From a virus: 64,000 nt of DNA. The stretch is taken from IMG/VR virus record IMGVR_UViG_3300049846_002076, positions 1-64,000 of that record; one strand, given 5' to 3'. This document shows, one piece after another, positions 4,217 through 62,894 of this stretch (the stretch's first letter is position 1; each line of letters opens with the position of its first letter). The position numbers were made by a program, and so were the translations under genes. The notes beneath the pieces are model-generated. The model was not told the origin of the DNA, did not search any database, and saw only the letters and a list, made by a program, of their open reading frames with translations.

Positions 4217-4237
4217 CGTCAGTAATGATTGATTATA
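4217..4237 (-). promoter_or_regulatory. Promoter -10 with operator copy (RNA ligase/polymerase unit)
   Basis: The minus strand has TATAAT (4232-4237) followed one base later by AATCA-TTAC-TGACG (4217-4230), two mismatches from the AGTCA-N4-TGACT palindrome found at other units. No good -35 lies 17 bp upstream. The expected mRNA leader to the ATG at 4205 is about 20 nt. Confidence 0.6.
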
Positions 4238-4243
4238 GCGAAG

Positions 4244-4540
4244 TCAGAAGGTGCCCACACCTTCGCCTGTAGACGGTTTGTCGCTTGGCGGCGGCAGCGG
4301 CGGCGACCGCCAAATCGCTATCAGGATGTGTGAGTAGTTGTCGTTCTTGCTGTGCGACGTCACGAGTCCGGGCTGTGACATCGGATTTGCGATGTTCTCG
4401 GTCTTGTAGATCGAATTCGGAACGACCTTCGTCTCCACCAGTTCCCATTCTTGATGCGCCGCACTCGGCGGAACAAGAAGCGGCCCGCTCGAGTTGCCTG
4501 ACAAGTGCATCGAGGTATAGGCATACGTGAATTGGGTCAT
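4244..4540 (-). CDS. Small hypothetical protein
   Basis: 98 aa; not recognised. It starts at 4540 with an ATGA overlap onto the end of the upstream gene (4537), the arrangement used throughout this unit. The sequence has a Trp-Glu-rich segment (EWELVETKVVP), an aliphatic stretch (LIAIW) near the end and a Pro/Ser-rich tail. Another leftward frame is open over the same DNA (4233-4580), but it lacks the coupled start. It is the last gene of the unit led by the CobS-like ATPase. Confidence 0.65.
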   Translation of the reverse strand: MTQFTYAYTSMHLSGNSSGPLLVPPSAAHQEWELVETKVVPNSIYKTENIANPMSQPGLVTSHSKNDNYSHILIAIWRSPPLPPPSDKPSTGEGVGTF

Positions 4541-5181
4541 TTGCCACCCTTGAACATGAGAGTGTGTCCGTCGTCGTCAACCACCCCGAACTCCACGAGA
4601 ATGCGACTGACGACAGCCACCCTGGCAGCGGCAGTCCCGTCGCTCCACTTGAAGCGCTCCATGTAGAGCACCTTGAGCTCCGACTTTCCGACCATCCCGG
4701 TCGAGAGCAGGCGCTCGACCGCGGAGTGCAGGTAGGGCATCGCGTCGACCGGGAAGGGGTTTTGGGCCGACTTGAGGGCGTCCCTGATTTCCCGGAACCT
4801 TCCCCGCTTGAGCATCGGGCGCATCCGGTCGCCTACCTTCTTGGGCAGGGCGTCGAGAAAGGCTTCTTCCTCTTCGAGGAGCTCTCGACGCACGATGGGG
4901 TCGTGCGTCCGGGTGGGCGGGCGCACCGTAAGCTGCACACTCGCCTCGGGCAGGGGGTAAGGGTCAGACCCAACCTCGCCCGCAGGAATCACTGCCGCCC
5001 TTCTAAGCTCGCTTTCGAGGTATTCCGCGAGGTCGTTCAGGGGTTCGGTTCGCGCATACGCCCGCACTTTGGCAAGGGACACGACACCGCATTCCTTGAA
5101 GTCGACGCACCCACGACACCAGGCGTCAGGCTTCGGGTTGAACGAAGTCGGGGAACCGAAGCAGCGGAGCTTGGGCATCAA
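4537..5181 (-). CDS. Hypothetical protein with N-terminal Cys cluster
   Basis: 214 aa; function unknown. Four cysteines near the N-terminus (C7, C22, C25, C31, in the order C, then CRGC, then C) look like a zinc knuckle. The middle is charged and acidic (RRELLEEEEAFLDAL), and the C-terminal third looks like a compact helical domain (VGKSELKVLYMERFKW). The gene overlaps the sigma-like gene upstream by ATGA and the next gene downstream by ATGA, so it is made together with them. A nucleic-acid-binding accessory of the sigma-like protein is possible but only a guess from position. Confidence 0.7.
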   Translation of the reverse strand: MMPKLRCFGSPTSFNPKPDAWCRGCVDFKECGVVSLAKVRAYARTEPLNDLAEYLESELRRAAVIPAGEVGSDPYPLPEASVQLTVRPPTRTHDPIVRRELLEEEEAFLDALPKKVGDRMRPMLKRGRFREIRDALKSAQNPFPVDAMPYLHSAVERLLSTGMVGKSELKVLYMERFKWSDGTAAARVAVVSRILVEFGVVDDDGHTLMFKGGK

Positions 5182-5852
5182 CGAAACTTGGCCGCATTGA
5201 GTGAGGGAATGTCGACCCGGAACTTGCGGTCGATTTGGTTACGCAGCGCGAGCGCCTCTTTCGGGGTGAAGTTGAGGCTCTTGCAGATGAAGTCGATCCC
5301 GAGACGAGTGGGCGCCTGATGCCCCTGCGCCCGCAGAGCTTCCTGGTGCTCGGCGAATTTCTTGAGCAACTCGGGGGACGGGCCATGCACCAGGATCGCG
5401 ATCACCTGCCTGAACCGTGGGGGCATGGCAGCGATGCGACTCGCCATGACCTTCTGCACTTGCCGGCGCTCGAGCACTTCCGGGGGCGCGTCGCATTCGC
5501 TGGCGATGAAGTCGAAGGCGCTGCGAACCTCGCCATGTTCGTCTTCGATCATGCCCTGCACTGAGGTCGCCGAGACCACCCGACGTTGCCGTTCCATCTT
5601 GTCGGCCCAACGGTTGAATTCGTGGAAGCAGGCGGTGTGCATGTAGGTGCTGAATTTCGCGCCCTTGGTGGCGTCGAACCGGCTCACGCAGGTGCAGTAG
5701 ACCTCGGTGAAGAACGAGACGAGATCCTCGTAGCTTGTGGTCGGGTCGATCGCCTGTGCCCGGGTGAGCGCCTTGCTGGCGATCTGCATCACCAGGCGCT
5801 CGTGTTGCTTCCAGTGCTCGACAGGGCTTACCGCAGGGACGCTCATGTCCAT
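5178..5852 (-). CDS. Sigma-70-family-like factor
   Basis: 224 aa. Residues about 38-85 carry a sigma-70 region 2 signature: SYEDLVSFF, then SRFDATKGAKFSTYMHT and FNRWADK, as in the -10-binding helices of sigma factors. A second half (about 130-215) containing RIAAMPPRFRQVI and a later helix pair could be a divergent region 4. Such proteins redirect host RNA polymerase to phage promoters. The gene sits between the CobS-like ATPase (1-bp gap) and the Cys-cluster protein (ATGA overlap). It is short for a primary sigma factor and resembles alternative or phage sigma factors. The family call is good; the promoters it recognises are not known. Confidence 0.75.
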   Translation of the reverse strand: MDMSVPAVSPVEHWKQHERLVMQIASKALTRAQAIDPTTSYEDLVSFFTEVYCTCVSRFDATKGAKFSTYMHTACFHEFNRWADKMERQRRVVSATSVQGMIEDEHGEVRSAFDFIASECDAPPEVLERRQVQKVMASRIAAMPPRFRQVIAILVHGPSPELLKKFAEHQEALRAQGHQAPTRLGIDFICKSLNFTPKEALALRNQIDRKFRVDIPSLNAAKFR

Positions 5853-5853
5853 G

Positions 5854-7050
5854 TCAGACTCCCGTTCCGAAGATGCGCTGTGCGACAGCGACCACCGCCT
5901 CCCGATCGACCTTGCCGAGACGATTGATGAAGGCGAGATTCAGGCCCATGAGGTAGCTGCCGCGCTTCATCCCGATCGACGCGGCGCGAATCAGGGCACG
6001 CGGCGACACGGTCGTGCTGATCGTGCCTTTGTCGAAGGTCTCGCGGACGCGGTTCGCGAAGTCCACGAGCTTCTCAGCGTCCTTGCGAGAGGTCTTCGCC
6101 TGGTTCATGACGACGAGCGTTTCCAGCTCGGGCTTCATGTAGCGGACTTGCACCGTGATCCCGAAGCGGTCGTAGTTGGCCGCGTTCTGGAGCTGAGTGC
6201 CCTGATAGAGGCCGGTCTCGTCCCCGGAACCGTTCGTGTTCCCGGTCGCGCAGAACCGGAAGTTGGGGTGCGGCTTCACGACCCGCATTTCGGGCGGGGC
6301 GTCCTTGATGAAGAGCGCGTTGCCTTCGAGAACCGGCTGGTAGACCGCCAGCACCGAGGGCAGGGCGAAGTCGTATTCGTCGGCGATGTAGACCCACCCG
6401 TGAAGCATCGCCAGGGCGAGCGGCCCGTATTGAAACACGGTCTCGCCCTTCTTCACGATCCACTGCCCGATCACGTGCGCCTCTTCGGTGTTGATCGTGT
6501 GCTGGATGCGAATCGCGGGACGCTGCGTCCGGGCGCAAATCTGGAGCAGCGTGGTGGTCTTGCCCGTGCCAGCGTGACCCCAGGCGAGCACTGGCACGTT
6601 CATTTCGATCCCCATGACGAGGTTCTTGAGGAGCTCGACGTCATAGACGTGATTCGGATCGACCGCGGGCACCAGATCCTTGTCGGCCGGCGTGATGTAG
6701 TGGGCCGGCGTCAGCACCTCCACCGGGATCGGCCCGCCCTTCGCGTTGAGGGCGGCAGCGACGCTGCCGAGGTCGAAAAGCTCGTGGAACGGCTTTGTCA
6801 CCTTGCTCACGACACCTCCGACGACGTGCAACGGGGCGGGGGCAGCCGACATTTCGGTCGTCGGGCTGGCACCCTCACGCTGCTTGCGCTGTTCCTCGAG
6901 CTTCGACTTTGCCAGCTCGGAGAGGATCGGAGCGTCGGGATACTTGCTCTGATATTCCTCGAGCGTAACCTCGGGGTGGCTGTCGCGCAGGTGAATCTGG
7001 ATCGAATGCACCTGCGCGTTGCACAGTTGGCAGCGAATCTTTTCCGTCAC
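5854..7050 (-). CDS. cobS: CobS-like AAA+ ATPase with N-terminal C2H2 finger
   Basis: 398 aa. An N-terminal C2H2-type element (C7, C10, H20, H25) is followed by a MoxR/CobS-class AAA+ module. Walker A is GHAGTGKTT (158-166), Walker B lies in VYIADEYD (219-226), and sensor 1 is CATGNTN. MoxR/CobS ATPases remodel partners that carry a VWA domain, and exactly such a protein is encoded next upstream (7132-9375). In cobalamin synthesis the CobS-CobT pair loads cobalt, but phage homologues occur without the corrin pathway, so a chelatase role should not be assumed. It is first in its unit, behind a promoter with an operator copy at 7071-7095. Confidence 0.88.
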   Translation of the reverse strand: MTEKIRCQLCNAQVHSIQIHLRDSHPEVTLEEYQSKYPDAPILSELAKSKLEEQRKQREGASPTTEMSAAPAPLHVVGGVVSKVTKPFHELFDLGSVAAALNAKGGPIPVEVLTPAHYITPADKDLVPAVDPNHVYDVELLKNLVMGIEMNVPVLAWGHAGTGKTTTLLQICARTQRPAIRIQHTINTEEAHVIGQWIVKKGETVFQYGPLALAMLHGWVYIADEYDFALPSVLAVYQPVLEGNALFIKDAPPEMRVVKPHPNFRFCATGNTNGSGDETGLYQGTQLQNAANYDRFGITVQVRYMKPELETLVVMNQAKTSRKDAEKLVDFANRVRETFDKGTISTTVSPRALIRAASIGMKRGSYLMGLNLAFINRLGKVDREAVVAVAQRIFGTGV

Positions 7051-7070: not shown

Positions 7071-7118
7071 TGTCAGTGCTGATTGTTGAATCATAGCGTA
7101 GCGAACTTGGCGGGTCGA
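7071..7118 (-). promoter_or_regulatory. Promoter with operator copy (cobS-like/sigma unit)
   Basis: On the minus strand: a weak -35 TCGACC (7113-7118), 17-bp spacer, -10 TATGAT (7090-7095), then AATCA-GCAC-TGACA (7071-7084), two mismatches from the consensus palindrome, five bases downstream of the -10. It lies in the 81-bp gap between the CobT-like and CobS-like genes. Confidence 0.6.
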
Positions 7119-7131: not shown

Positions 7132-9375
7132 TCAGCAGTGCGCGTCCGGCATCAGCATCGCCTTCAGCCGACGCAGCACTTCGCCCGGGAGATCCTCGAC
7201 GTTACTGAGGATCACATGCTTCTTGTAGAAACGCTTGACCGAGTCGTCCTGAATCCCGATTCCGACGACGTTGGTGCCGCTGCGTTCGATCTCCTTCACG
7301 ACCGATTTCAGGTGGTGTTCCAGGGCGTGCATGTCTCCTGCAGCAGCCGGGCGACCGTCAGACAGCACGATCATGATCTTCCGCGACTCGCGACGCCGGA
7401 TCAGTCGGGAATACGCCATGAGAACGCTCTCCCCGTCCACGTTCGACTGCAGAAGTCCGTGGGCGAAGTGAGCCAGGGTCGCGAAGCGCTCCCGAACGAT
7501 CGGGGTGAGCCTCTCGTCGAACTCCTTGAGAATGGGCATCACGATCGCCTCATGACGAGAGTAAGAGCCGACCTTCTTGATGTCCTCATGCAGACGCTTC
7601 GCAGCTTCGCCCGGGAAGCCTTTGGTGCTGAAGGCGACGACCTCGTTCACGATCTGCAGGCGGTCGAGAACGCTCGACAGGGCGTATGCCGCGTAGGACG
7701 CAATGTCGATCTTTCCATACATCGAGCCCGAGGCGTCGACGACCAGCTCGACCGCGACGTCCTTGGTGCGGTTTTCCTGCTTGCGACGAAACAGGTCGTC
7801 CCGGCCCGCGGTGATGCGGTGCAGCGAGGGGCCGTGCAGCTTCCCACTGCGAAAGCCGCTGGTGTAGACCGCCGCAGAGCGGGCGGCGACCGCCCGCTCG
7901 ATGTCCTTCTGCATCGGCCCGACCATGTGGTCGACCTTGTCCGTCATGTTCTTGAGCGCCCGCTGGCACTCGTAGTCGGTCGCGAAGTCATCCTTCACTG
8001 CCAGGGTCTTGATCACGTCGTAATCCGTCGACCAGACCTTATAGGGCGTATCCTTCATTTCCGACTCGGCCTCTTTCCCGATCACTCGGGCTGCCATGTC
8101 GTCGAAGTCTTCCTTGATGCGTTCGATCGCTCCGAGCATTTGCTCGGCACTGGTGTCTTTTTCCTGGGCGACACCCGAGTCAGCGTCCCCGGGCGCTCCG
8201 GTGAAATCGTCGGTGTGGTGCGTGTCCTGCTCGAAGACTTCCGGCGGAGAGTCGTCGTCCATCTCCTGATCGTTCTTCTTCGCCGCGGGCTTGCTCGACT
8301 TACCCGACTCACCCTTTTCCGCACCTTCGTCCTTCTCGCCGTCAGCACCGTCGCCGTCGCTGCCGGCCTCACCCGCTTCTTCGCCTTCTTCGCCCTCTTC
8401 GCTCGAGCCAGGGCTTTCGCCCTCGTCCGTGCCGCTCTCACCTTCGTCTTCGGCGTCGCCTTCAGCCCCCTTCTCGCTACCGTCGCCGCCCTTTTCTTCC
8501 TTCTCGTCTTTGCCTTCCTTCTCCTCTTTCTCGCCCTTCGACTTGCCTTTCTCTTCCTTCTCGCTCTCTTTGTCGCCTTCTTCCTCGCTGTCTGTCTCGG
8601 GCGAACCCTTGCCCGACTCGCCCTTCTTCTTGTCCTTCTTCTCCTCGCTTCCCTTCTTGGACTTCGAGGACGACTCGCCCTTTTCGCCCTTCTCGGAGTC
8701 GGGGGTAGGGCAAGACGAAGCTGCCGACTTGAGGCGCTTCATGAATTCTTCGGCGACGTTGACTGAATCCTTCGTGGATTCGATTGCGTTCAGGAGCTTC
8801 GGGAAGTCGGGGCCGAGGGCAGCGATCACGCCGGCCATCGGGGCACCGTATTCCTTCATGAAGTCGCGAAACAACGCCTGGTCTGCCATCGCCCGAAACA
8901 TCGGCATCAGCAGAATTTCCATCATGCGGTTGTTGTCGCCCTTCGCCCGGGCTTCCTCGATCGCGGGCCTAAGATGCTTCTCGATCAGGAAAGAGAGAAC
9001 CGAGGACAGGTTCGCAGCGGTTCCGGTGAAGCGCTCCCGCATCTTGCGCTCGACGTAGGTGTCCTCGACGATGTTGACGAGCGTCTGGAACTTGCGGTCG
9101 CCCCGGGCACACACGACATTGAGGTCGGTGAAGTCAGAAAAGAGCAAGTGACCGACTTCGTGATCCAGAAAGCCCTGCGTCGCCTCGATCAGGGCGTCGG
9201 TGGCGTCGTCGGGCAGGTAGGGAATGTTGACCTGGATGGGCTTGGCAGTCACCGGGTCGTGACGCACATAAGCAGTCACCCCTTGTTGAGTGACGCGGAT
9301 CTTGCGAATCGCCAGCATTTCGACAATCTTCGAGATCGCCTGTCTGACGATGATCACCCGCGGATTGATGTTCAA
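7132..9375 (-). CDS. cobT: CobT-like VWA-domain protein with HExxH motif
   Basis: 747 aa in three parts. The N-terminal helical domain contains HEVGH (72-76), a zinc-metalloprotease-type HExxH motif in a place typical of phage CobT-like proteins. A long low-complexity linker (about 225-400) is almost entirely Glu, Lys, Ser, Gly and Asp. The C-terminal von Willebrand A domain begins with a MIDAS DASGS (547-551) and contains VLSDGRP. It is the likely partner of the CobS-like ATPase encoded next in the same direction. SD-like GGAGCAGGA precedes the ATG. Its promoter probably overlaps the hairpin at 9406-9441. Family assignment is firm; the biological role in phages is not settled. Confidence 0.88.
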   Translation of the reverse strand: MNINPRVIIVRQAISKIVEMLAIRKIRVTQQGVTAYVRHDPVTAKPIQVNIPYLPDDATDALIEATQGFLDHEVGHLLFSDFTDLNVVCARGDRKFQTLVNIVEDTYVERKMRERFTGTAANLSSVLSFLIEKHLRPAIEEARAKGDNNRMMEILLMPMFRAMADQALFRDFMKEYGAPMAGVIAALGPDFPKLLNAIESTKDSVNVAEEFMKRLKSAASSCPTPDSEKGEKGESSSKSKKGSEEKKDKKKGESGKGSPETDSEEEGDKESEKEEKGKSKGEKEEKEGKDEKEEKGGDGSEKGAEGDAEDEGESGTDEGESPGSSEEGEEGEEAGEAGSDGDGADGEKDEGAEKGESGKSSKPAAKKNDQEMDDDSPPEVFEQDTHHTDDFTGAPGDADSGVAQEKDTSAEQMLGAIERIKEDFDDMAARVIGKEAESEMKDTPYKVWSTDYDVIKTLAVKDDFATDYECQRALKNMTDKVDHMVGPMQKDIERAVAARSAAVYTSGFRSGKLHGPSLHRITAGRDDLFRRKQENRTKDVAVELVVDASGSMYGKIDIASYAAYALSSVLDRLQIVNEVVAFSTKGFPGEAAKRLHEDIKKVGSYSRHEAIVMPILKEFDERLTPIVRERFATLAHFAHGLLQSNVDGESVLMAYSRLIRRRESRKIMIVLSDGRPAAAGDMHALEHHLKSVVKEIERSGTNVVGIGIQDDSVKRFYKKHVILSNVEDLPGEVLRRLKAMLMPDAHC

Positions 9376-9675: not shown

Positions 9676-9808
9676 AGATCCTCCGTTCTTGGTTGTTGGT
9701 CAACTCGCGCTGAGATTATAGCACTTAGGCACTATTGACGACACGCTGGCGACTGTTTGTCTATAATGACTGTTACGGGGATTCCCGTTTAGCTTCTGGA
9801 GGTAGACA
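9676..9808. promoter_or_regulatory. Divergent promoter region of the HTH regulator and the small acidic gene
   Basis: A leftward TATAAT lies at 9715-9720 and a rightward TATAAT at 9762-9767, 41 bases before the HTH start codon with GGAGGT as its SD. TTGACG at 9735-9740 is rightward but 21 bp from the -10. No good AGTCA-N4-TGACT copy is present, although AGTC/GACT-like fragments occur. This looks like the control switch of the phage, analogous in layout to an immunity region. Confidence 0.55.
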
Positions 9809-10279
9809 ATGAAACCCACCACCGTAGCCCAATACATCACGGCGCAGATCGAAGCCTCGGGTCTCACGAACTCCGAGATCGCTACCGCACTCGGCTACAC
9901 TCCCGACCGCGCTAACATGATCTCCATGATCCGCACCGGGCGCTCGAAGCTGCCGATCAACAAGGTCGCGTCGATGGCGAAGGCACTTCACATCGACCCG
10001 GCCCATCTCCTGCGCTTTGTGCTTCGGGAGTATTCTCCCGACACACTGGTCGCCCTCGAGGAGGCGATCGGCACTGGCCTTCTGACCGAAGGTGAGCAGG
10101 AGGTTGTCTCCCTGCTCCGTCGTGAGGCGGGCGAGCTGCCGATTCACCTGGCCGACGATCAACTCGTCACGATTCAGCAGTGGGCCCGGAAGGCCGCGCA
10201 GCATGCCCACGTTGAGCAGAATCGTCGGTTCAAGGAGGGGGCGAAGCATCGGCACTCCGAGGTCGCGCTGCAGCACTAG
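9809..10279 (+). CDS. XRE/Cro-CI-like helix-turn-helix regulator
   Basis: 156 aa and the only convincing rightward gene. Residues about 5-70 form an XRE-type HTH domain (SEIATALGYTPDRANMISMI, then GRSKLPINKVASMAKAL and HIDPAHLLRFVL), followed by a helical tail rich in charged residues that could dimerise. It has its own TATAAT and a strong SD (GGAGG). It converges on the guanylate-kinase-like gene with a 4-bp tail-to-tail overlap. It is the best candidate in the window for the protein that binds the repeated palindrome near the leftward promoters, but no direct link can be read. There is no LexA-like protease domain, so SOS-type cleavage is not expected. Confidence 0.85.
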   Translation: MKPTTVAQYITAQIEASGLTNSEIATALGYTPDRANMISMIRTGRSKLPINKVASMAKALHIDPAHLLRFVLREYSPDTLVALEEAIGTGLLTEGEQEVVSLLRREAGELPIHLADDQLVTIQQWARKAAQHAHVEQNRRFKEGAKHRHSEVALQH

Positions 10280-10953
10280 CGCTTCCAGAACATCCCATCG
10301 TTGACAGTCCCGCGAACCGTGCGGGACTTCGCGACGCCTTCGAGCCAGTCCCCCACGGCGCCGGCGTTCTGTTCGTCGTAGCGCTCCACGTAGAGGTCGT
10401 AGAGTTGCCAAAGGGTGCTGATGTCCAGCACCGCCTCTGCCTGCCACATGCGTTCGGTGGTTGCCATCTGTGCAAGCCGCCGAGCAGCCGCCTTGACCTT
10501 GCCGGCCGTCACGAAGGTGCCCTCGGGCATCGTGCGGGTCATGAAGCGCTCCATGAGCACGTTGGGGTCGCCGTCGACGAACACCGAGTAGAGCTGCGGC
10601 AGCGGGCGCGTCTCGGTCGTCCGATGCCACTTCTTGACCTGCTTGAGGCCCGTCGGCTCGATCACCCAGACCGCGAACCCGCCCCCACGGGCCAGGGCGT
10701 CGAGAATGTCGTCCTGGGTGTTCCCGTAGAAGTTGCCAGAGAACTCCACGTGCTCGACGAGCTCGCCGCGGGAGAGCTTCTCCTCGAACCAGGAACGGTT
10801 CCTGAAGTGGTAATCCCGGCCATCGACCTCGCCGGGCCGGGGTTCCCGGGACGTGTTGGAGATCACTCGGGCGGCGCCCCGCTTGATCAGGGCTTCCTCG
10901 AGGGTGGTCTTGCCCGCGCAAGACGGGCCGGTGAGTGTGATGAGGACGTTCAT
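10276..10953 (-). CDS. Guanylate-kinase-like P-loop protein
   Basis: 225 aa. The N-terminus carries a P-loop, GPSCAGKTT (9-17), followed by the guanylate kinase signature: SREPRPGEVDGRDYHF, then WFEEKLSRGELVEH and FSGNFYG. These correspond to the GMP-binding TxRxPRPGE and YG elements. It probably phosphorylates (d)GMP or a modified nucleotide, or is a diverged family member. The C-terminal third is longer and less conserved than in cellular Gmk. It is the last gene of the ligase unit, overlapping the upstream gene by 4 bp, and its end overlaps the HTH gene tail-to-tail. Confidence 0.82.
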   Translation of the reverse strand: MNVLITLTGPSCAGKTTLEEALIKRGAARVISNTSREPRPGEVDGRDYHFRNRSWFEEKLSRGELVEHVEFSGNFYGNTQDDILDALARGGGFAVWVIEPTGLKQVKKWHRTTETRPLPQLYSVFVDGDPNVLMERFMTRTMPEGTFVTAGKVKAAARRLAQMATTERMWQAEAVLDISTLWQLYDLYVERYDEQNAGAVGDWLEGVAKSRTVRGTVNDGMFWKR

Positions 10954-11512: not shown

Positions 11513-11748
11513 GTCCTCACGAACTTGTCGGGGTAGTTGGTCTGCAGGCCCGGCCCTTCGACCTTGACCTGTTCGATCATCGACGGCGAATACCAGATCA
11601 ACTGGCCGCGGTCGTTGCGCCGGCGGTAGCCGTTCGCGGTGATCGCCGCGAAGTGGGTCATGGCCTGATCCTTGGTGCCCACCCGATACTGGTAGGAACC
11701 CGGGAAACCCTTGACGAAGATCGACAGCTTGTATTTGCCGCTGGTCAT
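11509..11748 (-). CDS. Small hypothetical protein
   Basis: 79 aa, not recognised. A beta-rich first half (KYKLSIFVKGFPGSYQYRVGT) precedes a helix (KDQAMTHFAAITANGYRRR) and a hydrophobic strand (GQLIWYSP). It overlaps the ligase stop by ATGA and the next gene start by ATGA. It is likely a small modifier domain made together with the ligase; no function can be assigned. Confidence 0.65.
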   Translation of the reverse strand: MTSGKYKLSIFVKGFPGSYQYRVGTKDQAMTHFAAITANGYRRRNDRGQLIWYSPSMIEQVKVEGPGLQTNYPDKFVRT

Positions 11749-13205
11749 GCTGAAACCTCCTTCTTGTCGTCACGAAAGCGCACGAACCGGGGGTGCCGCA
11801 GCGAACCGTCCGGCGTGACTTCGTGGTATTGGACTTCGATCAGGCGACCCACTACAGGATCGGGATCGGCAAGGTGTTCCTTGATCGTCCCGAACGATGC
11901 TCCGATGGGATCGCTCAAGTGCCCGATCCAAAGGTCTTGACGCTGCTCGTCGGTGAATCCACCCCCGACGTTCACGCTAACCCCCTTATAGTCGACGATC
12001 AGGCCACCAAGCATCCCGGCATACTTGCCTTCGCCCTCGAAGGCGCCGATAACCTTGAGGTCGAGCGTCTCCTCCGCCTTGATCTTCGACCATGCGTGGT
12101 GGCGCTTGCGGTAGTAGAGCGCCTTGGGATCCTTGACGATCAGACCCTCGAGTCCTCGAGCCCTGCACGCCTCGTAGTGCTCGTGAATTTCCTCTTCGGA
12201 GTTCACGACTTTGGAGGGCAGCAGAACGATCGGGGCGCCGGCGGGGGCGCACTTCACGAACTCCTCGAGCCGAGCACGACGCTGTTCGTAGGTCTCCTCA
12301 CCGACCTCGTCCTTCGGGCCGGGCTCGTTGAAGTCGTCCTGAAAGAGCAGGTCGAACACGCAGAGCTTCGCGTCGATCGCCTGGGCGTCCTTGCGACGCA
12401 CATCGCCGACCGTCTTGTTGAAGCCACCCGAAACGACCTCTGCCTCGAGGACGAGGTAGCAGGCTTCGTCAGCCCGAAACTCTGCGTAGCAGGCGTCCAT
12501 GTGACCGCAGTCGATCCCCGAACCATCTTCGCCACCCTCGGGGCCGCCCTCCTTGTCGTAGAGGTCGCACGCCTTCCGCATGAGCTCGCCGCGGTAGACT
12601 GCAGCCGCGTCGATCAGGGGAGCCTTCAGATGGTCGAAGGTGGTGAACTCCTTGCCCGAGCGGGAGAAGAAGCGCACCTCCTGGTCGTCCAGGTTGATGA
12701 AGGTCAGCACCCGCACGCCGTCGATCTTCGGTTCGGCCCGCAGCGGGAACGCGAGCTTGTGCTTGTGCTCCTTGTAGGGGTGGGCCAGCATGCAGTCGAA
12801 CACCGTGATCGTCCCCGGCTTGGCCCGGTTGATCGTGCCCTCGGTGAAGCCCGCCCGCATGTCCTTGCTGATGATCCTCCAGAGCAACTCCTCGCTCTTG
12901 GGCGACAGGTCTTCCATGTGATCGACGAGCCAGTCGATCGCCGCATTCCCGGTCAGCCGTCGGGCGGCCAGGTCTTTCAGACCAGCCCACGTCGCGGCGG
13001 TGAACTGGTAGTCGGTGTTCTTCTTCGCCGGGTCGATCTTGGGGCGCTTGGCGATCCCGTAGGTCACGAAGGGGTCGTAGCACGCCACGAGCACGTCGGT
13101 GCCGAGGTCGTCCCCGAGCAGGGCGGCCACGAGAGCTTCCTTGTCCTTCTTGCCCGGGGTTGCGGCGATCTGTTCGATTGCGTCGAAAACTTGATCGGAA
13201 TTCAT
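11745..13205 (-). CDS. ATP-dependent DNA ligase
   Basis: 486 aa from ATG 13205. Motif I is EPKIDGVR with the predicted AMP-lysine K160, followed by motif III-like and IV elements (LEGLIVKDP) and an OB-fold end (LIEVQYHEVTPDG, then LRHPRFVRFR). Length and layout match phage ligases of the T7/T4-like ATP-dependent class; it seals Okazaki fragments with the phage polymerase and helicase. Two starts compete: ATG 13205 with SD GGGAGA, or ATG 13217 lying exactly six bases after the TATAAT, which would be a leaderless start adding four residues. It leads a five-gene unit under a promoter carrying a perfect operator copy. Confidence 0.92.
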   Translation of the reverse strand: MNSDQVFDAIEQIAATPGKKDKEALVAALLGDDLGTDVLVACYDPFVTYGIAKRPKIDPAKKNTDYQFTAATWAGLKDLAARRLTGNAAIDWLVDHMEDLSPKSEELLWRIISKDMRAGFTEGTINRAKPGTITVFDCMLAHPYKEHKHKLAFPLRAEPKIDGVRVLTFINLDDQEVRFFSRSGKEFTTFDHLKAPLIDAAAVYRGELMRKACDLYDKEGGPEGGEDGSGIDCGHMDACYAEFRADEACYLVLEAEVVSGGFNKTVGDVRRKDAQAIDAKLCVFDLLFQDDFNEPGPKDEVGEETYEQRRARLEEFVKCAPAGAPIVLLPSKVVNSEEEIHEHYEACRARGLEGLIVKDPKALYYRKRHHAWSKIKAEETLDLKVIGAFEGEGKYAGMLGGLIVDYKGVSVNVGGGFTDEQRQDLWIGHLSDPIGASFGTIKEHLADPDPVVGRLIEVQYHEVTPDGSLRHPRFVRFRDDKKEVSA

Positions 13206-13223: not shown

Positions 13224-13242
13224 ATTATAGTCAGTTTTGACT
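13224..13242 (-). promoter_or_regulatory. Promoter with perfect operator copy (ligase unit)
   Basis: AGTCA-GTTT-TGACT at 13229-13242 on the plus strand, an exact copy, directly upstream of and sharing one base with the minus-strand -10 TATAAT (13224-13229). There is no recognisable -35. The palindrome also covers the stop codon of the upstream gene. An ATG lies six bases past the -10. Confidence 0.75.
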
Positions 13243-16357: not shown

Positions 16358-16566
16358 CCTCTGTCCCTCCCGAGCACGATTTCCGCGGCGTCCCAGAACA
16401 CGAACACGATGATCGCGACTATCATGCCGATCTGCAGCCTGGTTTCACCGATTTGTCCGAGAAACTCCAGTGCGAGCATGACGATGATGATCGAGCCGAG
16501 CCCGATCACCAGCGCCACGATCGCGGTGAGAACGATCAACAGGAAGTGCTTGGGGCCTTCCATCAC
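16354..16566 (-). CDS. Small two-pass membrane protein
   Basis: About 70 aa with two long hydrophobic helices (FLLIVLTAIVALVIGLGSIIIVML and LQIGMIVAIIVFVFW) separated by a short polar turn. The start may be GTG 16566, giving a GTGA overlap with the helicase stop, or the adjacent ATG 16563, which has GGAGGA better spaced. It is the first of three membrane genes behind the helicase. It could resemble a holin, but it is far from the lysis cassette. Confidence 0.65.
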   Translation of the reverse strand: MMEGPKHFLLIVLTAIVALVIGLGSIIIVMLALEFLGQIGETRLQIGMIVAIIVFVFWDAAEIVLGRDRG

Positions 16567-17927
16567 TCCTCCCCGAGAACGCGCTTGATGAACTTCATCC
16601 GTTCGCGATCCTGTTCGATGCGGATCGAGAACCCGGCCGCCTGGTTGCGGGACGCTGCGAAGTAGAGCCGGGCGTAGCCCTCTTTGACTTCCTCTTCGGT
16701 CGCGTTGATGCTGATGATCACGTCAGCGATCCGCACCTTGTTGAAGTCGTCCGCGACGTGCTCGGCCTTCGCGACGGCAGCGGTGAAGCCCTGCCGGTTG
16801 GTCTGCGTGGCGGTGAGCAGGGCGAAGCCCTCCTGCATCGCGAGCCCACGCAGTCCGACGTAGACGCTCTTGGAGTTCTCGGTGGTGCTCTCCACGAAGC
16901 GTTCGGGCTGCATGATGTCCGCGTAGTCGACCACGACCATATCGAACATGACGCCTTGCGACTTGTAGTGTTCGATCAGCCGGCGCAGGTCGGAGACCCG
17001 CATCGAGCCGGTGGGGTATTCGACGATCTTGAGCTCGCCTGCTTTCTCGCCCCACTTGCGAACCTTGTCCATCACCGTGATGATGTGCGAGGTCAGCTCC
17101 TTGAAGGGCGTGTCCGAGATGTTCGCGTCCATGCGGGACGACAGGATCGAAGCCGAGACCTCCAGGGTCGCGTAGAGGACGTTGTGGCCGTTGCCCACTG
17201 CCTTGACGGCGAAGTCGAGCAGCGCGGTCGTCTTGCCGGATTTCGCCCCGCCCATGATCACGGACAGTTCGCGCTTGCCCCATCCCTTGTGATAGAGCTT
17301 GTCGTCGATCGCCGCGTAACCAGTGCTGATGCCGGTGGGGGAGCGCTTCCCGGCTGCGATCTCCTTGCGGTCGAAGGTGCGGGAGTCGATTGACCGCTTG
17401 AAGTCATAGACGCCTTGCTCGGGAGTGGCGCCGACTGCGAGTGCCTTCGACAGCTTCTCTTGGATGGCCGGGAAGTCGCCCTTGTCCAGCTTCTTGATTG
17501 ACTCGCGAATCGCGTCGGTGACCGCCTGGTGTTTCGCGAAGGTAGCCACCTGGTCGATCACGAAGTCACGATCGCCGATGTCGTGATCCCACAGCTCCTT
17601 GAGCGTGAGAATCACCGAGGGTGCGTCATCCTTCCGAAGCAGACCCTTCGCCAGGTTCTCCTTGATCACCTGCGCGAAGATGTTCTTGTCCGCGGGAAGG
17701 CGCTTGTAGGTCTTGAAGTAGTCGATCGCGATCGCCACGAGTTGAGCCACGGGAAGGCTCTCGAAATACTCGGGCAGCACGAGTCCGTCGGTGCGCTGAA
17801 CGAACTTCACGTCCCTCACCGTGAGGGCCGCGATTTTCTTCTGGAACGACAGGTCGTAGTCAAACTTGTGAACGACGTGCGTCGTTTCCTCGTCGACCGG
17901 GGCGGTTGCCAGGGCGGTTTCGGTCAT
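16563..17927 (-). CDS. dnaB: Replicative DNA helicase (DnaB-type)
   Basis: 454 aa. An N-terminal helical part (about 1-170) precedes a RecA-type helicase core. Walker A is GGAKSGKT (226-233), Walker B lies in DMVVVDYAD (329-337), and an H4-like segment with TATQTNRQG follows. It unwinds DNA at the fork and works with the primase encoded three small genes plus the HicA-like gene downstream. It overlaps the Hfq-like gene upstream by ATGA. The N-terminal domain is diverged from bacterial DnaB. Confidence 0.9.
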   Translation of the reverse strand: MTETALATAPVDEETTHVVHKFDYDLSFQKKIAALTVRDVKFVQRTDGLVLPEYFESLPVAQLVAIAIDYFKTYKRLPADKNIFAQVIKENLAKGLLRKDDAPSVILTLKELWDHDIGDRDFVIDQVATFAKHQAVTDAIRESIKKLDKGDFPAIQEKLSKALAVGATPEQGVYDFKRSIDSRTFDRKEIAAGKRSPTGISTGYAAIDDKLYHKGWGKRELSVIMGGAKSGKTTALLDFAVKAVGNGHNVLYATLEVSASILSSRMDANISDTPFKELTSHIITVMDKVRKWGEKAGELKIVEYPTGSMRVSDLRRLIEHYKSQGVMFDMVVVDYADIMQPERFVESTTENSKSVYVGLRGLAMQEGFALLTATQTNRQGFTAAVAKAEHVADDFNKVRIADVIISINATEEEVKEGYARLYFAASRNQAAGFSIRIEQDRERMKFIKRVLGEE

Positions 17928-18286
17928 TGCGCTGCCCTCGAGCCGAAGCTCTCGATGCCGTGCTTGTAGAAGGTGAGTTGGATCGGCGGGTCGAAGTTTT
18001 CGACCTTGCCCTGATCGTCCGTCGTCTTGACCATCATCGTGATGGTGAACTTGTCGCGAGTGACGATCGTGCCGATGTATCCCACGCCCGAGATTGCCAT
18101 GAGCGCGACCTCGGCTTTGGCGTCTTGCAGCCTGGCGAGAATCGCGTCGTGACCCTTGGGCATGAACTTCCGGGGCTTGTCGCCGCGGTATCCGGGCTTC
18201 GCGTGCAGGGTGGTATCGCCTTGGGAGCGGCCGAAACGCTGCTGGTCGGCGCGAATGTCTTCCGGGTTACGCTGTTGCTCGTTCAT
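17924..18286 (-). CDS. Hfq-like (Sm-fold) RNA-binding protein
   Basis: 120 aa. Residues about 43-112 follow the Hfq pattern: a helix GHDAILARLQDAK, Sm1 strands VALMAISGVGYIGTIVTRDKFTITMM (with the usual G and D-x-F), and an Sm2 motif LTFYKHGIESF in which KHGI (108-111) matches the YKHAI of Hfq. The N-terminal 40 residues are extra, polar and basic. Hfq pairs small RNAs with mRNA. It is made with the DnaB-type helicase (ATGA overlap), so it may act on phage RNA or on the fork. Similarity is clear by motif; activity is inferred. Confidence 0.75.
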   Translation of the reverse strand: MNEQQRNPEDIRADQQRFGRSQGDTTLHAKPGYRGDKPRKFMPKGHDAILARLQDAKAEVALMAISGVGYIGTIVTRDKFTITMMVKTTDDQGKVENFDPPIQLTFYKHGIESFGSRAAQ

Positions 18287-19060: not shown

Positions 19061-19108
19061 AATCAGTGCTTACTGACACATTATAGCGTCTGCGCTTGGA
19101 TTCGTTAA
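19061..19108 (-). promoter_or_regulatory. Promoter with operator copy (replication unit)
   Basis: On the minus strand: -35 TTAACG (19103-19108), exact 17-bp spacer, -10 TATAAT (19080-19085), then AGTAA-GCAC-TGATT (19061-19074), two mismatches from the palindrome, five bases downstream of the -10, where it would cover the transcription start. Confidence 0.75.
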
Positions 19109-23250: not shown

Positions 23251-23287
23251 ATTATGGTCGATTTCGCCTAGTTAGTCAATGCTGACT
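23251..23287 (-). promoter_or_regulatory. Promoter with perfect operator copy on its -35
   Basis: Minus strand: -35 TTGACT (23274-23279), exact 17-bp spacer, -10 CATAAT (23251-23256). The exact palindrome AGTCA-ATGC-TGACT (23274-23287) contains the -35 itself. It also covers the stop codon of the phosphoesterase gene. Confidence 0.8.
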
Positions 23288-26286: not shown

Positions 26287-26315
26287 ATTATAGCAGTCAG
26301 CGTTGACTAACTCAA
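26287..26315 (-). promoter_or_regulatory. Lysis promoter with perfect operator copy in the spacer
   Basis: Minus strand: -35 TTGAGT (26310-26315), exact 17-bp spacer, -10 TATAAT (26287-26292). The exact palindrome AGTCA-GCGT-TGACT (26295-26308) fills the spacer, which would block RNA polymerase when bound. Confidence 0.8.
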
Positions 26316-26581: not shown

Positions 26582-26622
26582 TTGCGTCTCCTTATATAAG
26601 GTTTAAGGTGCCACTTGAAGGT

Positions 26623-27831: not shown

Positions 27832-27875
27832 AGTCACAGGTGATTGATTCTGCCAGGATTTTTCGCCCCTGGCAA
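27832..27875 (-). promoter_or_regulatory. Promoter with operator copy (lipoprotein unit)
   Basis: Minus strand: -35 TTGCCA (27870-27875), exact 17-bp spacer, -10 CAGAAT (27847-27852), then AATCA-CCTG-TGACT (27832-27845), one mismatch, one base after the -10. The palindrome also includes the stop codon (27834-27836) of the upstream gene. Confidence 0.72.
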
Positions 27876-29374: not shown

Positions 29375-29398
29375 ATTATAGCATAGTCACCAATGACT
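29375..29398 (-). promoter_or_regulatory. Promoter with perfect operator copy; leaderless start
   Basis: Exact palindrome AGTCA-CCAA-TGACT (29385-29398) four bases upstream of TATAAT (29375-29380) on the minus strand. The -35 is poor. The ATG at 29368 follows the -10 after six bases, so RNA should start at or next to it. Confidence 0.75.
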
Positions 29399-34215: not shown

Positions 34216-34238
34216 GGTCAGTAGTGACTGTTATTCTA
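34216..34238 (-). promoter_or_regulatory. Promoter -10 with operator copy (fibre-tip unit)
   Basis: Minus strand: -10 TAGAAT (34233-34238), then AGTCA-CTAC-TGACC (34216-34229), one mismatch, three bases downstream. No clear -35 is visible. The leader to ATG 34205 is about 20 nt. Confidence 0.65.
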
Positions 34239-42783: not shown

Positions 42784-42812
42784 ATTTTACCTCAGTCAGT
42801 GGTGACTGCCTA
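42784..42812 (-). promoter_or_regulatory. Promoter with perfect operator copy; leaderless start
   Basis: Minus strand: -35 TAGGCA (42807-42812), exact 17-bp spacer, -10 TAAAAT (42784-42789). The exact palindrome AGTCA-GTGG-TGACT (42794-42807) lies in the spacer. The ATG at 42777 is six bases beyond the -10. Confidence 0.78.
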
Positions 42813-49055: not shown

Positions 49056-49084
49056 ATTTTGACAGTCAGTGCTGCCTGATGCAA
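49056..49084 (-). promoter_or_regulatory. Promoter with operator copy; leaderless start (tail-tip unit)
   Basis: Minus strand: -35 TTGCAT (49079-49084), exact 17-bp spacer, -10 CAAAAT (49056-49061). AGGCA-GCAC-TGACT (49064-49077), one mismatch, lies in the spacer. ATG 49049 follows the -10 after six bases. Confidence 0.75.
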
Positions 49085-49865: not shown

Positions 49866-49905
49866 AGCGAGCGCTGACTATACTTGAAAATGAATTTCGT
49901 GTCTA
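49866..49905 (-). promoter_or_regulatory. Strong promoter with operator copy (single-gene unit)
   Basis: Minus strand: -35 TAGACA (49900-49905), exact 17-bp spacer, -10 TATAGT (49877-49882). AGTCA-GCGC-TCGCT (49866-49879), two mismatches, overlaps the -10 by three bases and extends downstream. It starts right after the stop codon of 49906-50268. Confidence 0.72.
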
Positions 49906-54860: not shown

Positions 54861-55715
54861 TTACGAGTTGTCGCCCACGATGAAGAGGCGGCCGGTCGTC
54901 GGATCCGGGTAGCCCGTGAACTCGACGTTGAAGATCCGCTCCTGGTCGAGCTTGTAGGCGAAGTTCAGGGCGCCGCCCGTGTTCGCCAGCGGGATCACGA
55001 AGTCGTCGGACAGGTCGCCGGCGGCTTTCGCGGTCGGGTGCAGGCGCAGTTCCTTGGCGCTGGTCAGGAGATCCTGGCCGATGCCATGGTCGACGGAGAC
55101 GTATTTCTTCGTCGCGTCGACGCCACCCGTGAGGGTCGCGCCACCCATCGTCACCTTCGCCGCGGCAGTGCCGGTGACGGTGGTGAAGGTGTTGCCTTCC
55201 ACGCCGACGAACTCGTAGGTGAGCGTCACGACGTTGGTGGACGGCGAGGCGTCGACCAGCGAGAGCAGCGGGTTGGACGTCGCGTTGATGAAGTTCGACA
55301 GGTTCGTCGCGGTGGCAGCGGAGGACGCGCCGATGAGCACCTGGGTCTGGTTGTTGGCGACCGCGGTCTTGAACGTGATCGTGACGCCGTTGATGATGAT
55401 CGTCTCGCCGTCCGACGGGTTGGTCGTGATCGTGACCGTGCCCGACGCCTTGGTGCCGCCCGTCTGGGTCAGCGTGGCGCCCGGCATGATCTTGATCAGG
55501 TTCTCGACCGTGGTCTCGGCCATCGGCACCTTGACCGTGAGACTGCGGCCCATCACGTATTCGTTGATGGGGGTCTTGCCCATCTGGTCGACTTCGACCT
55601 TGTGGGTCTCGGACGTGACGTTCACCTCGACGCCACCCTGAGTCAGACCCAGGTCGTCGCCGTCGAAGTAGACCCGGCACACACCGAGTTTGACGTTGCG
55701 GGTATCGCTCTTCAT
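54861..55715 (-). CDS. Major tail (tube) protein
   Basis: 284 aa. Start and end fit the tail tube fold: RNVKLGVCRVYFDGDDLGLTQGG, then VEVNVTSETHKVEVDQMGKTPINEYVMG (two adjoining parts of the first sheet), VPMAETTVENLIKI, and DDFVIPLANTGGALNF with VEFTGYPDP near the end. An extra domain (about 95-195) with GETIIINGVTITFK and LIGASSAATATNL is an Ig-like insertion, which also resembles part of the gene at 49137. It has its own promoter and a strong terminator, as expected for an abundant tail subunit. Confidence 0.85.
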   Translation of the reverse strand: MKSDTRNVKLGVCRVYFDGDDLGLTQGGVEVNVTSETHKVEVDQMGKTPINEYVMGRSLTVKVPMAETTVENLIKIMPGATLTQTGGTKASGTVTITTNPSDGETIIINGVTITFKTAVANNQTQVLIGASSAATATNLSNFINATSNPLLSLVDASPSTNVVTLTYEFVGVEGNTFTTVTGTAAAKVTMGGATLTGGVDATKKYVSVDHGIGQDLLTSAKELRLHPTAKAAGDLSDDFVIPLANTGGALNFAYKLDQERIFNVEFTGYPDPTTGRLFIVGDNS

Positions 55716-55754: not shown

Positions 55755-55798
55755 AGTCACGACTGCCTGATTGTGCCAGAAGTGGGCACTCGCGTCAA
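55755..55798 (-). promoter_or_regulatory. Tail tube promoter with operator copy
   Basis: Minus strand: -35 TTGACG (55793-55798), exact 17-bp spacer, -10 CACAAT (55770-55775), then AGGCA-GTCG-TGACT (55755-55768), one mismatch, one base downstream. Confidence 0.75.
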
Positions 55799-59253: not shown

Positions 59254-59267
59254 ATTCAGTCGTGACA
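59254..59267 (-). promoter_or_regulatory. Weak operator copy after the capsid gene
   Basis: ATTCA-GTCG-TGACA, two mismatches from the palindrome. No clear -10/-35 pair is visible. It could regulate a weak promoter for the connector genes, or be a relic. Confidence 0.4.
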
Positions 59268-59280: not shown

Positions 59281-60180
59281 TTAGATGTTGGTGACGCCCT
59301 TGAGACGAGCCACGGCCTTCGTGCTCTTCAGGGCGGCCCCGCAATACCACTTCACGCGGGTGCGGGTCGCGTCCTTGTTCTGCACGGTGCCGATCTCCTC
59401 GATCCGCCAGCCGGCCGAGTCGCCGCCGAACAGACCGTGGAAACCGTCGGCCTCGTTGAAGCGCACGGCGTAGATCGAGCAACAGGCCGAGGAGCCGCCC
59501 TGCACTTCGTTGCCGGGCAGCCACTCGTTCCGCAGGATCGCGAGACCGTTGTGGGCCGGCACCATGCCGAAGTTCTCGATCATGACCTGCTGCGGCTGCG
59601 CGCCGCCGAGGGCACGGAGCAGCGCCAGGTAGGCGCGGTAGGTGCCCGGGCGCATGATCAGCGCGTCGGCACCGAGCGGCACCTGGTCGGCCAGGTCGTC
59701 GAGCATCGACATCGTCAGCGCGGCGCCGTTGGCCCCCGCGGTGAGCGTCTGGCCCGCGACCGTCAGCTTCTTCAGGCCGTCGAACGACTTGGTGTCGCCC
59801 GTCACGTCGCCGTTCACGACCGTGTCGGCGAACTTGCGGGAGATCGCCTTGGCCTTGGCCGCGATCTGGATGGCCTTCTGGTTGTTGAGGTTCGACATCG
59901 TCTCCTGGAGGAACTTGTCGACGTCGACGTCGCCGGCGAGGATGCGGAGCTTCGCGGTGACTTCGTCGAAGTCCACGGCGCCCTCGTTGACGGTGTCGTT
60001 CGGATCCAGGAAGTCGACGGAAGCCAGCGACTTCTCACGGTGGTAGACCAGCGCCTTGCCGTCGACCTTCTGGAACGGCAGCATCGCCAGCATCTCGTCC
60101 TTCGTGAGGACTTCTTCGATCACGCCAGCGAGGACGTGGTCGGGGGAGAGGCGTTCGGCCTCGACTCGGAGCAGCGGCAT
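59281..60180 (-). CDS. Major capsid protein
   Basis: 299 aa. It has the length and outline of an HK97-fold coat protein without a long delta domain: N-terminal LSPDHVLAGVIEEVLTKDEM, a P-domain-like region (KFLQETMSNLNNQKAIQIAAKAKAIS), and an A-domain with LTMSMLDDLADQVPLGADAL, IMRPGTYRAYLALLRALGG, GLAILRNEWLP and VRFNEADGFHGLFGG. It follows the scaffold gene with a 176-bp gap holding a promoter, operator and hairpin. It is one of the most abundant products, consistent with its own promoter and terminator. Confidence 0.85.
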   Translation of the reverse strand: MPLLRVEAERLSPDHVLAGVIEEVLTKDEMLAMLPFQKVDGKALVYHREKSLASVDFLDPNDTVNEGAVDFDEVTAKLRILAGDVDVDKFLQETMSNLNNQKAIQIAAKAKAISRKFADTVVNGDVTGDTKSFDGLKKLTVAGQTLTAGANGAALTMSMLDDLADQVPLGADALIMRPGTYRAYLALLRALGGAQPQQVMIENFGMVPAHNGLAILRNEWLPGNEVQGGSSACCSIYAVRFNEADGFHGLFGGDSAGWRIEEIGTVQNKDATRTRVKWYCGAALKSTKAVARLKGVTNI

Positions 60181-60280: not shown

Positions 60281-60303
60281 GATGTAAGTCAGCACTGACT
60301 GTA
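60281..60303 (-). promoter_or_regulatory. Capsid promoter region with perfect operator copy
   Basis: Exact palindrome AGTCA-GCAC-TGACT (60287-60300). Two -10 candidates on the minus strand flank it: TACAGT (60298-60303) upstream and TACATC (60281-60286) downstream; neither has a good -35, so the active promoter is uncertain. It lies about 100 bp before the capsid ATG. Confidence 0.62.
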
Positions 60304-61196: not shown

Positions 61197-61255
61197 ACAC
61201 TACCTTTCTGCCCTATCTCTCGGGCGCTTGTGGCCGATCTCTTGGCCGGTTTGTG

Positions 61256-62842
61256 CTACGAGTTCACTACCTTGTTCGCGATTGCGTTCTTGCCTTCCTT
61301 CTTGATCGGGTCGCCCTTTGCCGCGCCGGCAGCACCGGCTTCGGCCATCTTGCGAGCCATCTCGACGGGATCGGGCGGCCACGACTTCACGCTTTCCTTC
61401 AGCGCTTCCATCACTTCTTCCTTCACCTGCGGGAACAGCTTCTCGATCAGGGTGTTCATCTGCTCCTGACGCACTTCGTCGGGAGCGTCGATCAGCGCCA
61501 GGCGGGCGGCGATCTCGAATTCGTCGTAGAGCGAGCGAACGTCGAAGTTGTCGGGGTATTCGACCAGCTCGTTCTCGAGCTCCTCGATCATTTTCTCTTC
61601 GCCATGCCACTTCGCGACGAGCCAGCAGAGCCGGTTCTCGATGCGCTCGAGCGAACCTGCCTTCGAGGCGAGCAGGGCGTTGACGCGCTCGAAGTCGTAG
61701 GCTTTCGCCACGCCCGAAGCGTTGTCGATGCCCTTGCCCGAGTCGTCCTTCGTGCGTTCGCCCGAGAGACCGACCGAGTGGTAGATTTCGTTGATGATCT
61801 TGCCGACGACCGCCAGGATGAGTTCTGCCTGCTTCACGTCGGGCGAGAGGTAGAAGGGTGCCGCGTTGCCCTCGCCGTTGTAGGTGAAGACGCGCTTCGT
61901 GCCCATCTGGATGAGCTTGTCGATGGTCGCGGTGTCGGTGTCGGTGCCCGGCATGAGACCCTGGGCCGGCATCGCAAGCTGGCTGAAGGTCTGATCCTGA
62001 ATGATCGCGTCCATGTTCGACAGATAGTTCGCGACCGCACGATCGAGGTAGGCGACATCGGCGATCATCGCCGGTGAAGTGTAGGGTTCGTCGGAGATCA
62101 CGTTGTCGGCGGCGAACACCGGCACGACGCCCAGGTTGTGCATGATCGGGGCGCGGGGGATCACCTTGACCTTCGTGGGATCCTTCGAATCTTCGCCCTT
62201 CGTCTCGAAAAGCTGGCTGAACGTGCGAGTCCACAGCCGGTAGCGGTATTTCACCTTGCCGGAACTGTCGATGGGGTCGGCATCGTCCCGCGTCGTCTCT
62301 CGAATGAGAATCCAGTTGAGGTCGCCGCGGTCGTCGTAGCTCATGTCGAGCGCGTCCTGCGGCAGCACCATGTAGGAGTAGACGCGAACGCCGGCCTTCT
62401 TCTCGTCGGCCTTCGTTCTGATCTTGCCGGTGCGGTTCGAGTCGACCACGACCCAGACGCGACCATTGGTCGAGCTGGCGCAGGAAATGCGCTTGGCGTA
62501 ATCCTCGATCTCGAGACCGTTGAGGGTGGAGTTCTCCCAGAACTTCTTCACGCTCTCCGGGGCGTCGCCTTCGCGGCGAACGATGAGCATCTTGAAGATG
62601 TGCTTGTCGACGAGGTCGACCACTTCCCGGGTGTGGTTGAAGCGATAGGCGCGACTGCGACGGGCACTGTATTCGTCGTCACCTTCCTTGTGATACTTGA
62701 AGATGTTGTTGACGAACCACTCCCGTCCACCGTTGTAGGTGTCCTGGAGAAACGCCCAGTGACTCTCCATCGCGTCGTATTCGGGGTGACGACGCTTGAT
62801 GAAGCTCCTGAGCCTGGTCTGTTCGGAAACGGGGTCGGCCAT
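61256..62842 (-). CDS. Portal protein
   Basis: 528 aa. Portal-like features include WAFLQDTYNGGREWFVNN, RSRAYRFNHTREVVDLVDKH, a domain with IKRISCA-type strands and the TYNGEGNAAPFYLSPDVKQAE region, then KIINEIYHSVGLSGERTKDDSGKGIDNASG (a clip-to-stem junction) and an acidic helical end. It forms the dodecameric channel in the capsid vertex for DNA packaging. Behind its own promoter (62866-62894) with a perfect operator copy; SD AGGAC. Confidence 0.85.
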   Translation of the reverse strand: MADPVSEQTRLRSFIKRRHPEYDAMESHWAFLQDTYNGGREWFVNNIFKYHKEGDDEYSARRSRAYRFNHTREVVDLVDKHIFKMLIVRREGDAPESVKKFWENSTLNGLEIEDYAKRISCASSTNGRVWVVVDSNRTGKIRTKADEKKAGVRVYSYMVLPQDALDMSYDDRGDLNWILIRETTRDDADPIDSSGKVKYRYRLWTRTFSQLFETKGEDSKDPTKVKVIPRAPIMHNLGVVPVFAADNVISDEPYTSPAMIADVAYLDRAVANYLSNMDAIIQDQTFSQLAMPAQGLMPGTDTDTATIDKLIQMGTKRVFTYNGEGNAAPFYLSPDVKQAELILAVVGKIINEIYHSVGLSGERTKDDSGKGIDNASGVAKAYDFERVNALLASKAGSLERIENRLCWLVAKWHGEEKMIEELENELVEYPDNFDVRSLYDEFEIAARLALIDAPDEVRQEQMNTLIEKLFPQVKEEVMEALKESVKSWPPDPVEMARKMAEAGAAGAAKGDPIKKEGKNAIANKVVNS

Positions 62843-62865
62843 GTCTGTCCTGTATAAGCTCCGGC

Positions 62866-62894
62866 AGTGTAGCAGTCAGTGGTGACTAACGCAA
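62866..62894 (-). promoter_or_regulatory. Portal promoter with perfect operator copy in the spacer
   Basis: Minus strand: -35 TTGCGT (62889-62894), exact 17-bp spacer, -10 TACACT (62866-62871). Exact palindrome AGTCA-GTGG-TGACT (62874-62887) fills the spacer. It begins five bases after the terminase stop. Confidence 0.75.

Follow-up and report, generated by a model that had tools for sequence, protein, structure and literature searches.

What acts at a short palindrome that recurs at promoters throughout a phage genome? The question arises from a 64,000-nucleotide stretch of viral DNA (the window; positions 1-64000 of the 73,643-bp IMG/VR record IMGVR_UViG_3300049846_002076), in which copies of AGTCA-N4-TGACT lie at the starts of transcription units; whole-record counts given below also cover the DNA beyond the window. 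Comparison with related elements makes it very probable that gene 9809-10279, which codes for an XRE protein, supplies the phage's lysogeny (immunity) repressor and that these palindromes are its operators, with AGTCAGTGGTGACT as the proposed binding sequence.

We infer physical binding, dimerisation and repression from the arrangement of sites and proteins. A repressor dimer would occupy one 14-18 bp palindrome, either in the spacer between the -35 and -10 boxes or over the start point, and would thereby block RNA polymerase. Its targets would be most of the phage's promoters, those of the nucleic-acid metabolism, tail, capsid and portal units among them, and its own promoter would also be held, through the imperfect site 9758; loss of the repressor would then release all units together. 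A preliminary description of the window had proposed that one regulator may silence or time the entire genome: a single phage regulator at most promoters agrees with the comparative evidence, but the timing is unsupported.

A palindrome enriched at promoters

Order-3 Markov sequence would yield 0.08 exact copies of AGTCA-N4-TGACT and 1.0 copies with one mismatch over the 73,643-bp record, which in fact contains 8 of each. When half-site spacers of 0-15 bases were compared, exact matches were in excess at 4 bp alone, and when all 60 orderings of the half-site were compared, each of the 59 others gave at most two exact copies. A codon-usage gene caller finds the record to be ~96% coding, with an intergenic share of 3.7%; 12 of the 16 sites with ≤ 1 mismatch are nonetheless intergenic (p ~1e-14) and 3 more overlap gene ends, which leaves site 7986, within cobT, as the sole truly coding one. 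The motif is thus far from equally frequent in coding DNA, the outcome that the preliminary description had said would speak against it, and the sites of relatives are likewise mostly intergenic.

All seven exact, four one-mismatch and four two-mismatch sites listed in that description were recovered at its coordinates, and the scan it had called for, of the full record and relatives, added an eighth exact copy at 69360, past the window end, as well as matching palindromes in repressor-bearing relatives. Its two-mismatch class needs qualification: the positions are right, but the class total is not above chance (30 sites with ≤ 2 mismatches in all versus 20.2 ± 5.0 expected). Because 8 of the 20 two-mismatch sites are intergenic versus ~0.7 expected, the ones at promoters, taken together, are probably genuine. 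Nor are the sites restricted to leftward units, as had been thought: a short way beyond the window end, 69360 and 71259 serve genes that run rightward. Also overlooked was a pair of sites, 9727 and 9758, at the divergent promoters of the regulator gene. A reversed-pattern control is not a clean null here, as the extended sites also contain TCAGT-N4-ACTGA.

On the transcribed strand most sites take one of two placements (Table 1), within the -35/-10 spacer or right after the -10 box over the expected start point, the latter at 4217, 7071, 19061, 27832, 34216 and 55755 and at the rightward sites 69360 and 71259. When nine related sequences were pooled, the distance from -10 centre to operator centre peaked at -10 and +11, a separation of 21 bp, with 33% of the sites at +5 to +16 (null 18%), 27% at -16 to -8 (null 16%) and 7% between the two peaks (null 20%). 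Judged from sequence, both placements would block RNA polymerase binding or starting, and neither would be typical of an activator. The reported overlap with -10 boxes fits our promoter map, but the tally of exact 17-bp spacers is not independent evidence, because the promoter scoring itself favours 17 bp. Genes headed by an operator include those for RNA ligase, DNA ligase, tail, capsid and portal proteins.

Table 1. Predicted operators and the candidate repressor gene in the window
Feature	Coordinates	Strand	Placement or context	Basis
Predicted operator, exact	13229..13242		-35/-10 spacer group, abuts -10 of DNA ligase unit 11745-13205	PHROG for ligase
Predicted operator, exact	23274..23287		covers -35 of unit starting 23221	
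Predicted operator, exact	26295..26308		-35/-10 spacer of unit starting 26254	
Predicted operator, exact	29385..29398		-35/-10 spacer of tail-fibre unit starting 29368	
Predicted operator, exact	42794..42807		spacer of giant tail-fibre gene 35707-42777	
Predicted operator, exact	60287..60300		at weak -10, upstream of major capsid gene 59281-60180	
Predicted operator, exact	62874..62887		upstream of portal gene 61256-62842; assigned to -35/-10 spacer by eye, contrary to the promoter map's own choice	
Predicted operator, 1 mismatch	27832..27845		directly after -10 of unit starting 27811	
Predicted operator, 1 mismatch	34216..34229		directly after -10 of unit starting 34172	
Predicted operator, 1 mismatch	49064..49077		spacer of minor-tail-protein unit starting 49049	
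Predicted operator, 1 mismatch	55755..55768		directly after -10 of Ig-domain tail-protein gene 54861-55715	
Probable operator, 2 mismatches	4217..4230		directly after perfect TATAAT of RNA ligase gene 3600-4205	
Probable operator, 2 mismatches	7071..7084		after -10 of gene 5854-7050 (cobS position)	
Probable operator, 2 mismatches	19061..19074		after perfect TATAAT of gene 18350-19042	
Probable operator, 2 mismatches	49866..49879		overlaps -10 of unit starting 49838	
Doubtful operator, 2 mismatches	59254..59267		intergenic, no good promoter near	
Probable operator, 2 mismatches	9727..9740		upstream of TATAAT of leftward promoter divergent from repressor	
Probable autoregulatory operator, 2 mismatches	9758..9771		centred on -10 (TATAAT) of repressor's promoter	
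XRE/cI-type repressor gene, 156 aa, proposed master repressor	9809..10279	+		PHROG, Pfam, homology, AlphaFold2

A putative repressor family and its matching palindromes

The 9809-10279 gene, the sole rightward gene within the window's leftward array, encodes a protein that matches a PHROG transcriptional regulator (8e-7) and, slightly short of the cut-off, Pfam HTH_3 (2e-4). It is homologous to CYRAN_45 of Cyrano ('putative repressor'), with 30-39% identity to phage homologues in tblastn searches (E 1e-7 to 1e-11) and a family size of 126-177 aa. An AlphaFold2 model, built without an alignment (mean pLDDT 69), is helical throughout and has a helix-turn-helix (HTH) at helices 21-27 and 32-43. 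A search of solved structures returned HTH matches, all weak, so the structural position of residue 34, discussed below, rests on a moderate model.

The gene adjoins a cobT-cobS-sigma-dnaE block (cobT-like 7132-9375, cobS-position gene 5854-7050, sigma-like 5178-5852 on the minus strand and DNA polymerase 183-3566) whose order is the same in relatives. Repressor homologues occupy this block in Rhizobium phages (RHEph10, B1VFA, X66, Y2_11 and N1_10), in Escherichia/Klebsiella elements (Cyrano, PhiR41_1 and pJN2-26) and in plasmids of Cupriavidus, Acinetobacter, Sinorhizobium, Shinella and others; 910 plasmid records carry one, with E down to 3e-16. These matches place the window regulator in the CYRAN_45-type family of putative repressors of SSU5/AB_1-like phage-plasmids, homologous proteins in the same neighbourhood with matching promoter palindromes, and the window phage is distantly related to the SSU5/AB_1/RHEph10 phage-plasmid lineage. 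A weak Hfq-like gene (17924-18286, minus strand) and a guanylate kinase gene (10276-10953, minus strand) also recall Acinetobacter and Cupriavidus phage-plasmids. Searching IMG/VR by repressor alone confirmed no close relative, an alignment query proved too diverse, and a near-identity phage search gave trivial matches only.

Relatives were scanned for over-represented inverted repeats with no target motif supplied. Among those bearing the repressor, this unguided scan returned AATCA/AGTCA palindromes in RHEph10, Y2_11 and N1_10, AGTCA palindromes in the Cupriavidus and Acinetobacter elements, and TAAGT(AA) palindromes in B1VFA, X66 and a 100-kb stretch of Cyrano. The TAAGT motif did not rank above nulls in 50-kb dyad scans (Cyrano second half, pJN2-26 and PhiR41_1); it stood out when 100 kb of Cyrano were scanned and when intergenic sites with one mismatch were counted. 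Whole records contain exact AGTCA-N4-TGACT 23 times in Acinetobacter baumannii NZ_CP115646, 12 times in Cupriavidus and 28 times in Methylobacterium oryzae, and exact AGTA-N6-TACT 34 times in B1VFA, 33 in X66, 36 in Sinorhizobium pLM21S1 and 12 in A. baumannii NZ_CP107617; the Methylobacterium AMS5 element has 42 AGTMA-N4-TKACT sites, nearly all with AGTCA. By mechanical gene calls, class-matched sites are intergenic in 16/16 cases in B1VFA, 15/15 in X66, 16/18 in AciA, 14/16 in Cupriavidus and 13/15 in RHEph10.

The repressor-less relatives nickie and BUCTxx99 have been without the gene for a long time, and whole-record counts and scans found no such palindromes in them; contig G001, a ~108-kb related viral contig with no recognisable repressor, has 0 and 1 sites of the two classes. 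Thus the 9809-10279 protein, already suggested as the regulator in the preliminary description, gains from this comparison: repressor-bearing relatives have palindromes, the sequence of these tracks the recognition helix, and relatives long without a repressor have none.

Of 17 genomes, 16 have a class-matched site with ≤ 2 mismatches ahead of the repressor gene (0.2-0.85 expected in each). The published transcriptome of a Cyrano lysogen of Escherichia coli LF82 shows CYRAN_45, there named the putative lysogeny repressor, expressed ~10-fold above background (PMC9928086). Of the 13 testable Cyrano genes reported as lysogen-expressed, none has an operator ≤ 130 bp upstream, versus 21 of 99 other genes (p = 0.056), a result that is no more than suggestive.

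Two other repeats were seen in these relatives. A second palindrome, AAACAA-N1-TTGTTT, has 9 copies in 100 kb of Cyrano and is also present in pJN2-26 and SSU5, and contig G001 carries ~18-bp tandem repeats with ATGCAT at 26486-26670.

Predicted operator classes and the recognition helix

Alignment by centre gives the sites a common 18-bp frame and divides them into two main classes, AGTCA-N4-TGACT and AGTAA-N4-TTACT, with the extended half-sites (TC)AGTCA(GY) in class 1 and (TA)AGTAA(GT) in class 2. Half-site positions -8 and -4 swap C and A jointly between the classes, and the enteric members belong to the AGTAA class. In the recognition helix, the first residue that varies (Arg34 of the window protein) is Arg, Lys, Gln or Ala in class 1 repressors and Asn in class 2 repressors. 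A distant contig (G007) has a Ser-Pro-Ser helix and 12 copies of a third operator-like palindrome, ATAAAYRTTTAT.

Predictions for five as yet untested phage-plasmids and one doubtful plasmid were written before their sites were searched. Five of the five fit: AGTCA sites were found in Methylobacterium AMS5, M. oryzae and Pararhizobium, and the predicted AGTAA class in Rhizobium beringeri (26 vs 0) and Shinella (9 vs 1, plus 12 mixed sites), with R. beringeri, close to B1VFA, and Pararhizobium, close to RHEph10, being weak tests. The doubtful Cereibacter plasmid (43.9 kb), which carries a repressor homologue and cas3, showed no sites and was not counted as a phage-plasmid. In the Shinella element (NZ_CP132310), 12 of 22 sites are mixed, with AGTAA on one side and TGACT on the other, and this genome may lie between two specificities.

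Class differs even within a host group: two A. baumannii elements have 23 AGTCA and 1 AGTA sites versus 0 and 12, and two groups of Rhizobium phages also differ. Tentatively, and with somewhat less than even confidence, we propose that one residue at the start of the recognition helix (Asn versus Arg/Lys/Gln/Ala) sets A or C at -4/-8 of each half-site across the family, making operator class, and perhaps immunity group, readable from the repressor sequence.

Alternative explanations, known systems and dormancy

Other proteins might be imagined at these sites. Palindromes of 14-18 bp are common targets of host regulators and the sites overlap sigma-70-like promoters, so that a host protein could be controlling many phage promoters. 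The class differences within A. baumannii and within the Rhizobium phages make this extremely unlikely, because two phage-plasmids of one host species each follow their own repressor. The AGTCA class is, moreover, common to Methylobacterium, Cupriavidus and Acinetobacter elements, and similar relatives without the repressor have no palindrome. To our knowledge, the palindrome is also unlike the gamma- or alphaproteobacterial LexA box, which counts against a host regulator as well.

The palindrome might instead be part of the promoter, an activator or sigma-factor site for the sigma-like protein 5178-5852, given that sites abut -10 boxes and that a sigma-like gene is present here as in the Rhizobium relatives. 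We regard this as highly unlikely: the site can lie on either side of the -10, in the spacer or at the start point, which suits neither a core element nor a site for an activator bound upstream, and it occurs in enteric and Acinetobacter elements with no sigma gene annotated beside dnaE. The idea that the sites serve chiefly a second phage protein, such as a Cro-like partner or a partition protein, draws on P1 and lambda, in which more than one protein acts at shared operators, and on a small ORF that relatives carry between repressor and cobT, with a conserved position, partial sequence conservation and a weak match in the window. We consider it very unlikely, in that Pfam gave no match for the small ORF of the window, and partition sites would be expected neither on promoters nor to follow the XRE recognition helix in their class. 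A second phage protein could, all the same, bind in addition to the XRE repressor.

Several observations weigh against control by the XRE repressor itself, or against parts of that proposal. Some units have no site of their own, for example the DnaB-like helicase 16563-17927, and on the family tree class and residue change together ~3 times, all concordant, too few for significance. The 73.6-kb record, probably incomplete (relatives are ~105-120 kb), gave no integrase, Rep3, TrfA or ParA-type AAA_31 match, the TrfA query having had no working positive control. SSU5 (JQ965645) lacks the repressor yet has 8 intergenic sites in its first 50 kb. At 42525-42761 its record passes directly from tRNA-Asn to cobT, and the repressor and integrase of relatives are absent. 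If the repressor was lost recently, retained sites would be expected. SSU5 is an exception to strict co-occurrence; it was rejected as a clean control with neither repressor nor sites. One paper moved SSU5 from predicted lytic to temperate.

Genome-wide lysogeny operators are already known as a way of working; the probable operators described here add a new and widespread member, which its palindrome, promoter placement and matched classes distinguish from P1 and L5 in its particulars while the kind is the same. In the Streptomyces phage phiC31, one repressor binds palindromic conserved inverted repeats beside many promoters. The preliminary description had likened the window sites to the stoperators of Cluster A phages such as L5, which are likewise spread through the genome, with motifs that drift together with the repressor, but are asymmetric 13-bp sites that for the most part share one orientation and lie off promoters, up to ~30 per genome (PMC6550527). 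The contrast it drew, with palindromic sites at promoters, holds; by analogy, however, the P1 C1 repressor is the nearer functional parallel, because the window sites are palindromic and promoter-bound. C1 is a phage-plasmid lysogeny repressor with many dispersed operators (22, 17-bp and asymmetric; PMC8546580), whereas here 14-18 bp palindromes of unrelated sequence are paired with a small XRE repressor. The SPBRE of SP-beta, also a repeated intergenic element, was predicted in silico long before its repressor MrpR was found (PMC10516654). MrpR is a recombinase-fold protein of the tyrosine-recombinase type with ~10 promoter sites of 15 bp (PMC10516654); the window regulator is HTH_3/XRE-like. 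The literature searched, which included few subscription papers, held no description of operators for SSU5- or AB-type phage-plasmids and no account of how their dormancy is kept.

By analogy with these relatives, the window phage would form lysogens or be a phage-plasmid. Relatives are induced by DNA damage (PMC9928086; PMC9600943), yet the small size of the repressor leaves no room for an obvious self-cleavage domain. Cyrano has a separate LexA-like S24 peptidase gene, CYRAN_98 (39311-39700 of the stretch examined), which might link DNA damage to the repressor in that element.

Many of the 910 records are 100-120 kb elements of Klebsiella, Escherichia, Acinetobacter, Enterobacter and Salmonella, many carriers of the family are hospital pathogens, and related phage-plasmids carry resistance genes (PMC9600943). 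If the proposed mechanism is right, one protein and one short site would explain dormancy, and the genes under control could be read from sequence in each element. Repressor-operator co-evolution would become open to study across alpha-, beta- and gammaproteobacterial hosts. Should a single residue indeed set operator class, each class switch would require some 10-40 operators in a genome to change in concert, which raises the question of how a genome alters dozens of operators when the specificity of its repressor shifts.

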